64,000 bases of DNA from Anaerolineae bacterium (lineage in GTDB: Bacteria > Chloroflexota > Anaerolineae > Aggregatilineales > J027). This document shows, one piece after another, positions 53,286 to 56,732 of this stretch. Both the position numbers and the translations under genes were made by a program. Within the stretch, counting starts at the first letter, position 1; each line of letters opens with the position of its first letter. Location: NCBI GenBank assembly GCA_021463865.1, contig JAJTXY010000002.1:128219-192218 (forward strand). Reading direction: 5' to 3'. The notes beneath the pieces are model-generated. The model was not told the DNA's origin and did not search any database. It saw nothing but the letters and a program-made list of their open reading frames with translations.

Positions 53286-53296
53286 CATGGGATTTG

Positions 53297-53333
53297 AAGG
53301 GAGGGTGATTTTTATGCTCACCTTCCCTTTTTT
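53297..53333 (+). terminator. Intrinsic terminator of the ABC exporter operon
   Basis: A 12-bp stem AAGGGAGGGTGA / TCACCTTCCCTT (one G-U pair) with a 9-base loop is followed by a run of six T. This is a textbook rho-independent terminator. Confidence 0.9.
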
Positions 53334-53361
53334 GACATACTTATGGCAAAACAAAGCGAAT
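53332..53361 (+). promoter_or_regulatory. Candidate promoter of the repair/glycan gene series
   Basis: A consensus TTGACA (53332-53337) overlaps the end of the preceding terminator. With an 18-base spacer the -10 would be GCGAAT (53356-53361), a weak match, placing the transcript start at the ATG at 53369. No ribosome-binding site is present, so a leaderless start is possible. Confidence 0.35.
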
Positions 53362-53368
53362 TTTAGTG

Positions 53369-54391
53369 ATGAATCAACAACACATCTCCGGTTGTCTTAT
53401 CGGCATGGCACTGGGGGATTCTCTCGGCGCCGAAACTGAATTTTTGAATATCAAAGGCATCCTCGAAAAATTCCCGCCATATGGCCCACAAGCCCCTGAA
53501 GGCAATCCGGCCCTCGTCACCGACGACACCCAAATGGCAATCGCAGTGGGCGAGGCAATAATCGGCGCACCCAAACCCCTTGAACCCGACAGCCTTGCCC
53601 AAGAATTTCGCCGCACTTTTTCGGCATGGTACAACAGCCCCGAAAATAATCGCGCTCCCGGCAACACCTGTCTGACCGCCTGCGAGGAAATGTTGAAGGG
53701 CAAATCGTGGCTAGAGGCATCGCAGATTAGCTCCAAAGGCTGTGGTGCCAATATGCGAGTTATGCCCGTCGGGGTATTGGACGTGGATACGAACACCCGC
53801 GCAGGCATCGCCCAATTGCAAGCCGCCATGACACACGGACACCCTACTGGACTGGCTGCCGCTGACTTAACCGCCTTTGTGATTGCGGATTTAGGTAATG
53901 GAGGCACCCCTAACGATTTACCCAAACGGGTGCGGGACTATGCCCTCTCCCAACGCGATATTTACCATGCTGATTGGCTTGGCGAATTATGGCACAAAGC
54001 GTTTATGCTGCCGACACCGCAGGCCTATATTGCACATGGGTGGGATGAATGTTTGGGTGTTTTAGATCGGCTAGATATAGCCCTTGAAAAAATGGATCGG
54101 GAAACTGACCCCTGCCTAGCAACCGGCGCAGGTTGGGTGGCGGAACAAGCCTTTGCGACGGCCCTATTCTGTTTTTTGATGTACCCCGACGACCCGATTG
54201 CTGTTATTCGCCGTGCCGCCGTCACGAGTGGTGATTCGGATTCCATCGCGTGTATTGCAGGGGCGTTCGCTGGGGCCTATCACGGCATTGATGCATGGCC
54301 TGCCGATTGGGTCGAGCGGATTGAGTATCGAGATCGGATTTTGGGGATAGGAGAGGCTTTGTCCAAAATCCCCACCTCGAAAAGTCAATAG
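53369..54391 (+). CDS. ADP-ribosylglycohydrolase family protein
   Basis: Encodes 340 residues. Signatures of the ARH/DraG family are clear: GCLIGMALGDSLGAETE near 8-24, TDDTQMA near 50 with the first Mg2+ Asp pair, and TSGDSDSIACIAGAFAGA near 286-303 with the second metal cluster. The family removes ADP-ribose from Arg or Ser side chains or from related small molecules. The ATG at 53369 lacks a ribosome-binding site; an in-frame GTG lies directly before it. A low-Mr phosphatase and a fructosamine kinase follow on the same strand, hinting at a joint role in removing sugar-derived damage. Confidence 0.92.
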   Translation: MNQQHISGCLIGMALGDSLGAETEFLNIKGILEKFPPYGPQAPEGNPALVTDDTQMAIAVGEAIIGAPKPLEPDSLAQEFRRTFSAWYNSPENNRAPGNTCLTACEEMLKGKSWLEASQISSKGCGANMRVMPVGVLDVDTNTRAGIAQLQAAMTHGHPTGLAAADLTAFVIADLGNGGTPNDLPKRVRDYALSQRDIYHADWLGELWHKAFMLPTPQAYIAHGWDECLGVLDRLDIALEKMDRETDPCLATGAGWVAEQAFATALFCFLMYPDDPIAVIRRAAVTSGDSDSIACIAGAFAGAYHGIDAWPADWVERIEYRDRILGIGEALSKIPTSKSQ

Positions 54392-54445
54392 GACGTGCTA
54401 TCATATCCCTCCATTGAAAATGTAGAGGAACTTGAGCAAAGGCTT

Positions 54446-54913
54446 ATGATTCGTGTACTCTTCGTTTGTTTAGGGAATATCTGCCGCTCACCAATGGCAG
54501 AGGGCGTCTTTCAACACATGGTCAATGAGGCCGGGTTGGGCGAAAAAATCCAGATAGATTCCGCCGGAACCGCCAGCTATCACGAAGGTGAACAGGCGCA
54601 CAGTGGCACACGGCGCGTTTTGCAGGAACACGGCATTGACTATCGGGGACGGGCGCGTACACTTACCCGCAATGATTTTTACAATTTTGATTACATTTTG
54701 GCGATGGACGCCGATAACCTCGCGGATATACACAGCCGACAGCCCGCCGACAGCAAGGCACACATTCGGCTGTTTTTGGACTATGCACCCGATCAACCCG
54801 TCCGCGAAGTGCCTGACCCCTACTATAATGGGCGGTTTCAGGAAGTCTATGATTTAGTATCGGCGGCCTCTAAAGGATTATTGGCGGAAATACGCACGAC
54901 ACACGAGCTATAA
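54446..54913 (+). CDS. Low-molecular-weight protein tyrosine phosphatase family
   Basis: Encodes 155 residues with the active-site loop C8-LGNIC-R14-S at the N-terminus, DSAGTASYHEGEQAH, ILAMDADN, and the general-acid Asp in VPDPYYNG near 122. These enzymes act through a phosphocysteine intermediate on phosphotyrosine or on small phosphates. The ATG at 54446 is chosen because aaagg lies 5 bases upstream and the catalytic Cys is then at the family-typical position; the GTG at 54395 would add 17 residues. It sits 12 bases before a fructosamine-kinase gene. That pairing is documented in bacteria, where the phosphatase dephosphorylates ribulosamine 5-phosphates. Confidence 0.93.
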   Translation: MIRVLFVCLGNICRSPMAEGVFQHMVNEAGLGEKIQIDSAGTASYHEGEQAHSGTRRVLQEHGIDYRGRARTLTRNDFYNFDYILAMDADNLADIHSRQPADSKAHIRLFLDYAPDQPVREVPDPYYNGRFQEVYDLVSAASKGLLAEIRTTHEL

Positions 54914-54925
54914 GGAACTGCCCCA

Positions 54926-55798
54926 ATGCGCCTGCCGGTGGGAATCGAAAGCGCACTGCGCGATAAATTCAAGATTGAGCCAAAAGACGTGCAGCCTTGC
55001 GTCGGTGGCGACATCAACCACGCCGCGCAAATTGCCACAGCCGACGGTTTCCTATTCATTAAATGGAATGAAAATGCGCTGTCGGGGATGTTCACCGCCG
55101 AATCAAAGGGATTAAGAATCCTGCGCGATTCCAAAACCTTACGGGTACCGGAAGTCATCGTGGTGCAAGAGGCCGAGGGCGACACTCCCGCTTTTTTGGT
55201 CTTGGAATGGCTGGAGTCGGGTCAAGCGAATTTGCAGACGCCGGAGCAATTGGGGCAAGGACTCGCCGCGCTGCACCGCCAAACCGCCCCCAAGCATGGC
55301 CTCGACCATGATAATTTCATCGGGTCGCTATACCAATCCAACCAACAGCAAGATTCGTGGGTCACATTTTATGCCGAACAGCGCATCCGCCCGCAAATGG
55401 AAATCGCTCGCCAAAAAGGGATGCTGCGTCCGGGGCGCGAACGCATGTTGGAAGTTTTTTTGGCCCATCTGCCCAAATTGATTCAAGATGCCCCTGCCAG
55501 TTTGCTGCACGGCGATTTGTGGGGTGGCAATGTCATGATTCTCGCCAATCAACAGCCCGCCGTGATTGACCCCGCCGTCTACTATGGCAATCGAGAAGTC
55601 GAACTCGCCTTTACGGAATTATTCGGCGGATTCGCCAAACGCTTCTATGATGCCTATCACGCCGCCTATCCGCTTGAACCGGGCTATCCCAGCCGCCGCG
55701 CCCTCTATCAACTATATCCGTTAATGGTGCATATGAATTTATTCGGCGGGGGTTATGCCAGTCGTGTTGATTCTATCCTCAGCCAGTATGTAGGGTAA
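54926..55798 (+). CDS. Fructosamine/ribulosamine 3-kinase family protein
   Basis: Encodes 290 residues of the fructosamine-kinase family with an aminoglycoside-kinase-like fold. It has GGDINHAAQI near 28, the VK-type FIKWNE, LHGDLWGGNVM near 194-203 with the catalytic Asp, and AVIDPAVYYGNREVELAF near 212-229 with the metal-binding Asp. Bacterial members phosphorylate the 3-hydroxyl of ribulosamine or erythrulosamine adducts, which then detach from protein (family knowledge). The close upstream LMW phosphatase supports this over a sugar-kinase role. The next gene starts one base after its stop. Confidence 0.92.
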   Translation: MRLPVGIESALRDKFKIEPKDVQPCVGGDINHAAQIATADGFLFIKWNENALSGMFTAESKGLRILRDSKTLRVPEVIVVQEAEGDTPAFLVLEWLESGQANLQTPEQLGQGLAALHRQTAPKHGLDHDNFIGSLYQSNQQQDSWVTFYAEQRIRPQMEIARQKGMLRPGRERMLEVFLAHLPKLIQDAPASLLHGDLWGGNVMILANQQPAVIDPAVYYGNREVELAFTELFGGFAKRFYDAYHAAYPLEPGYPSRRALYQLYPLMVHMNLFGGGYASRVDSILSQYVG

Positions 55799-55799
55799 T

Positions 55800-56732
55800 A
55801 TGCCAGATCAGCCTACCTGTTCCGTTGTTGTCCCTGTTTATAACAGCGAAGCCACCCTGACCCCCTTAATTGAACGTCTCGCCGCCGTCCTGCCAACCCT
55901 CAGCAGCCAATTCGAGGTGATCTTGGTCAACGATGGCAGCCGCGATAAAAGCTGGGAGGTCGTATCCCGACTAGCCGAAGTCTATTCATGGGTGCATGGC
56001 ATCAATTTTATGCGGAATTATGGACAGCATAATGCGTTGTTAGCAGGTATTCGTGCCGCCAGCCATGCCATCATCATCACAATGGATGACGATTTGCAGC
56101 ACCCGCCCGAAGAAATCCCGAAATTGCTGGCGAAATTGGCCGAGGGCTATGATGTGGTATACGGCACACCCCAAGAATACCCGCATGGCATCTGGCGAAC
56201 GATGGCCTCACGGATCACGAAATTGGCCTTACAGGGGGCGATGGGGGCCGAAACCGCCAAACATATTAGTGCCTTCCGTGCCTTCCGTACCCAAATTCGA
56301 GACGCCCTGACCAATTTTCAAGGGCCATATGTCTCGATTGACGTGCTGTTGACATGGGGAACGACCCGTTTCGCGGCGGCCACCGTGCGGCATGAGGAAC
56401 GGGCAGTGGGTAAATCGAATTACACTTTCCGTAAGCTCATCCGCCATACTATGAATATGATGACGGGCTTTAGTGCCATACCCCTCCAATTAGCCAGTTT
56501 GGTCGGGTTTGTCTTCACGGTCTTTGGCATCTTGTTATTGTTGTTCGTGGTCGGGCGTTACCTAATCGAAGGCGAGAGCGTGCCGGGGTTCCCATTTCTG
56601 GCCTCAACTATCGCTATATTTTCAGGTGCGCAGTTGTTCGCATTGGGCATCATTGGTGAATATCTAGCCCGGATGCACTTCCGTATGATGGATCGCCCCA
56701 CCTATACCATACGCTCCAAAACATGGGAGTAG
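55800..56732 (+). CDS. GT2 glycosyltransferase (polyprenyl-phosphate sugar synthase type)
   Basis: Encodes 310 residues. A GT-A domain (1-215) has VVPVYNSEATL near 9, NDGSRDKSW near 42-50, MDDDLQHPPEE near 92-102 with the metal-binding Asp residues, and SNYTFRKL. Two membrane segments follow (about 235-260 and 270-292). This layout is that of DPM1/GtrB-like enzymes, which load a sugar from a nucleotide onto polyprenyl phosphate on the cytoplasmic side. Such carriers feed GT39-type enzymes like those in this window. The gene abuts the kinase upstream and overlaps the reading frame of the acetyltransferase downstream. Confidence 0.92.
   Translation: MPDQPTCSVVVPVYNSEATLTPLIERLAAVLPTLSSQFEVILVNDGSRDKSWEVVSRLAEVYSWVHGINFMRNYGQHNALLAGIRAASHAIIITMDDDLQHPPEEIPKLLAKLAEGYDVVYGTPQEYPHGIWRTMASRITKLALQGAMGAETAKHISAFRAFRTQIRDALTNFQGPYVSIDVLLTWGTTRFAAATVRHEERAVGKSNYTFRKLIRHTMNMMTGFSAIPLQLASLVGFVFTVFGILLLLFVVGRYLIEGESVPGFPFLASTIAIFSGAQLFALGIIGEYLARMHFRMMDRPTYTIRSKTWE

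Follow-up and report, generated by a model that had tools for sequence, protein, structure and literature searches.

The window, i.e. the whole 64-kb stretch of Anaerolineae bacterium DNA analysed here, contains three consecutive genes on the plus strand, which encode an ADP-ribosylglycohydrolase of the ARH/DraG type (ARH, 53369..54391; PF03747, E 2.7e-65), a member of the low-molecular-weight (LMW) protein-tyrosine-phosphatase family (PTP, 54449..54913; PF01451, E 7e-43) and a fructosamine-kinase-family protein (FN3K, 54926..55798; PF03881, E 2.9e-86), in agreement with the families named in the preliminary description of this DNA. The ARH reading frame starts with ATG at 53369 and its stop codon ends at 54391; the PTP gene starts with ATG at 54449, its orf extending back to a GTG at 54395. 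The gaps had been given as 54 and 12 bases, of which the latter, between PTP and FN3K, has been reproduced and the former, between ARH and PTP, measures 57 bases. Upstream of ARH there are two ABC-transporter genes. A gene for a family 2 glycosyltransferase (55800..56732, plus strand; PF00535, E 4.2e-31) starts 1 base past the FN3K stop codon and is possibly co-transcribed with FN3K. At the DNA level the glycosyltransferase gene is 75% identical to its counterparts in two species of the same genus (G155 and G161) and 84% to that of a third (G166), whereas the ABC and FN3K genes are ~90% identical to those of G155 and G161, a pattern which is a sign of allele replacement. The Rfam scan of 49-58 kb of the window gave no match.

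A strong intrinsic terminator hairpin (GAAGGGAGGGTGA...TCACCTTCCCTTTTTT, 53296..53333, plus strand) is located at the 3′ end of the ABC-transporter operon, between this operon and ARH (fold of -21.1 kcal/mol, z -4.46, a value matched by 0 of 200 shuffles). A promoter-like region of the PTP-FN3K unit (54377..54404, plus strand) overlaps the 3′ end of ARH and comprises TCGAAA, a 16-nt spacer and the extended -10 TGCTATCAT at 54396-54404, where the promoter scan placed TG ahead of the -10. The extended -10 motif TGYTATYATA is common to all five species of the genus set (the window's own, G155, G161, G166 and G176), being found ~45-55 bases before the PTP start regardless of the preceding sequence, and its match here is the sole one in the window, with 0.33 expected. 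Judged by the motif match and its conservation, PTP-FN3K probably has its own promoter; in the window itself, transcription of ARH may run on into PTP.

All five species have ARH, PTP and FN3K at the same place, and in the four whose assembly shows the distance ARH lies within ~0.7 kb of PTP. The distance of 57 bases in the window contrasts with 543-639 bases in the three other intact loci, in each of which a different gene has been found between ARH and PTP: a same-strand gene of 170 aa in G155, a minus-strand DUF3027 gene (E 7.5e-15) in G161 and a minus-strand DUF6210 gene (E 9.9e-26) in G166. In G176 the ARH gene is flanked by an orf of 323 aa, on the minus strand relative to ARH, and then by the contig end. 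The opposite-strand genes of G161 and G166 exclude a continuous same-strand ARH-PTP-FN3K unit in these species. The 3′ end of ARH in the window, CCTCGAAAAGTCAATA, matches the region upstream of PTP in G155 and not the ARH of that species; since it is the same DNA, the last ARH codons correspond to former intergenic sequence. The simplest reading is that the 57-base gap is probably a deletion junction from which the intervening gene has been lost.

The 5′ side of ARH also varies in the genus, with a copy of the 170-aa gene, an HNH pair or a TPR protein. The variable spot extends from the ABC-transporter operon to PTP (equivalent to 53286-54449 of the window; L124 7173-9265, L125 7152-9555, L126 6888-9435 and L127 414-3262 in the relatives), and in it ARH is constant amid changing DUF3027, DUF6210, HNH pair, TPR protein and a duplicated gene of 170-178 aa. 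Repeats marking a mobile cassette around ARH were absent from the window, and the relatives gave weak pairs only, some of which stem from the gene that is duplicated in G155. As the position of ARH is kept in five species, its loose link to PTP-FN3K is stable within the genus.

The neighbourhood survey proposed in the preliminary description has been run, and the ARH neighbour is not conserved in other Chloroflexota beyond this one genus. ARH-family genes are present in 84 of 150 genomes of the class; among the matches listed, only the ARH of the window lies beside an FN3K. None of the 27 FN3K loci fetched outside the genus contained ARH when searched by HMM in six frames. In the order, among the matches listed, 13 of 151 genomes encode an ARH close to that of the window (>300 bits); five of them are the genus itself and in the other eight the ARH lies away from FN3K. 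The reverse comparison took the best 80 genome loci at which a relative of this ARH is encoded; they belong to Chloroflexota, Cyanobacteria, Actinomycetota, Armatimonadota and other groups. Apart from the genus members L164, L165 and L166, 77 loci remained, and in none of them was FN3K or PTP found within the fetched 8 kb on each side (less at contig ends). Many gene calls at the high-GC actinomycete loci are antisense artefacts, and therefore the comparison of neighbours was limited to the absence of FN3K and PTP (HMM, six frames); the ARH of L138 was missed by the simple gene caller and recovered by HMM. The ARH relatives of Ktedonobacteria, cyanobacteria and actinomycetes stand in unrelated contexts, and no gene was seen to accompany this subfamily across phyla at the genome loci. 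In both Ktedonobacteria that were checked (L173 6885-7787 and L176 7019-7864), the gene immediately preceding the ARH relative, in the same orientation, encodes a NUDIX protein, which is a likelier functional partner for an enzyme that releases ADP-ribose. None of the papers searched covers both ADP-ribosylglycohydrolase and fructosamine.

The linkage of PTP to FN3K is of a different extent. A strong FN3K has been found in 27 of 150 genomes of the class and is adjoined by PTP in at least 17 of these 27 (hand count from coordinates); PTP also lies beside FN3K at 20 of the 27 FN3K loci fetched outside the genus (HMM, six frames). In other genera of the family, as across the class, the pair is conserved with no ARH next to it. 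Within PTP the CX5R motif claimed previously is present as CLGNICRS, together with a DPYY loop, and the best solved relative is YfkJ (4etm, 7.8e-41). FN3K carries HGDLWGGN, the catalytic HGDxxxxN motif, and its best solved relative is a plant protein-ribulosamine 3-kinase (6oid, 3.7e-44). By these features PTP is a probable ribulosamine-5-phosphate phosphatase and FN3K a probable ribulosamine/erythrulosamine 3-kinase.

Genes for an FN3K homologue and an LMW phosphatase are often adjacent in bacteria. The suggestion that FN3K and the adjoining phosphatase form a ribulosamine repair pair is supported by the linkage found in the class and beyond the genus. According to Gemayel et al. 2007 (FEBS J 274:4360, as cited in PMC13223202), bacterial FN3K homologues are ribulosamine/erythrulosamine 3-kinases, and the same work is credited in PMC5617981 for a deglycation system for ribose-5-phosphate adducts that includes ptpA. 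The genes of the window fit the described bacterial pair of ribulosamine 3-kinase and LMW phosphatase, and the pair itself is not new. By analogy with the described relatives, protein lysines would be glycated by ribose 5-phosphate, the LMW phosphatase would take off the 5-phosphate, and the kinase would then phosphorylate O3 of the ribulosamine, which would drop off. As in the known system, the FN3K homologue adjoins the LMW-PTP on the same strand, with a gap of 12 bases here, and in many relatives the two genes overlap or nearly so; unlike the known system, the locus has a glycosyltransferase gene after the pair and ARH, judged unrelated, before it. Two genomes of one family have two tandem PTP genes beside FN3K (L144 7196-8130, minus strand; L159 4278-5380, plus strand), which are perhaps phosphatases for two different phospho-adducts. 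The FN3K of G196 (L133 1763-2632) looks broken by internal stop codons and its PTP is still open.

The ARH protein has the di-metal motifs TDD and GDxDS/T in the form of TDDT and GDSDS. Its AlphaFold model (pLDDT 92) is a complete all-helical ARH fold in which the last three residues are of low confidence. Structural matches (Z 35-41 overall) were obtained with ARH3 (Z ~40), ARH1 (38-39), Tri1 (36) and DraG (35), all of which match the fold over the full length and have TDDT and GDSDS in common with it; the identity to these solved members is only 22-24% over the structural alignment and, unlike them, the ARH of the window falls in a separate subfamily (GAGWVAEQAF region). Assignment as a DraG equivalog was rejected, TIGR02662 giving 75.5 bits against the cut-off of 337 bits. 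A DraT partner was not found in the own genome by a search that matched no control genome either, nor was DarT found in this genome; both negatives are weak. It is most likely that ARH hydrolyses an ADP-ribosyl bond.

The preliminary description had joined the three genes into a cassette in which ARH frees ADP-ribose and PTP and FN3K mend the ribose adducts that arise from it; such a cassette would be a single, co-evolved transcription unit. The proposed chemistry, from ADP-ribose breakdown to ribose adducts, is reasonable, and the shared strand, the short gaps in the window and the constant position of ARH in five of five species of the genus speak for the cassette. Evidence against it comes from the genes intervening in G155, G161 and G166, which in two of these sister species lie on the opposite strand between ARH and PTP, and from the separate promoter motif of PTP. 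Linkage outside the genus is lacking in either direction, and there is no genus-level co-occurrence in the order, where a strong FN3K is present in 3 of the 8 genera that have a close ARH relative and in 28 of the 53 that lack one (p 0.47, Fisher test; hand-read counts, among the matches listed). The preliminary description had itself named, as grounds against the cassette, a neighbour not conserved in relatives, or separate transcription with an ARH specific for an unrelated small molecule; the missing linkage outside the genus, the intervening genes and the promoter motif of PTP fall under these grounds, and we regard the cassette as extremely unlikely. A weaker form, in which the place of ARH within ~0.7 kb of the pair would reflect a loose functional coupling of ADP-ribose turnover to the repair of ribose adducts, confined to one genus and with the genes transcribed separately, is very unlikely. 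The comparative evidence ties ARH to deglycation by its place in one genus and by nothing beyond.

Two further readings concern what ARH does. It has an even chance of being a housekeeping enzyme that hydrolyses ADP-ribosyl small molecules or the cell's own ADP-ribosylated proteins, with no relation to where its gene lies, as the retained metal-ligand motifs and complete fold, the NUDIX gene in both Ktedonobacteria checked and the failure to find DraT (by a search without a positive control) or DarT in the own genome would suggest, even though two missing transferase families carry little weight. Such a role is compatible with the preferred explanation given below because it concerns ARH only. 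Less probably, in a spot that collects small toxin-protection genes, ARH could be an orphan immunity protein that reverses ADP-ribosylation by an ADP-ribosyltransferase toxin; known ARH-type immunity proteins match it structurally (6dre/6drh with Z 36, 8za7 with Z 35) and the small DUF genes around it differ within the genus, but ARH stays constant there while its neighbours change, no linked toxin gene has been recognised and the subfamily is widespread in unrelated contexts, which makes this role improbable.

Very probably the locus consists of a two-gene PTP-FN3K deglycation unit, likely with a promoter of its own, beside an independently placed ARH. ARH seems to adjoin the pair by chance, at a chromosomal spot of variable content, and the three-gene locus is most likely ordinary genome structure. 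The cassette, if true, would have tied ADP-ribose metabolism to glycation repair. Tight spacing in one genome can mimic an operon, and sister species reveal the unrelated genes in the gap; the locus itself adds a case from Chloroflexota to the known deglycation pair of kinase and phosphatase.
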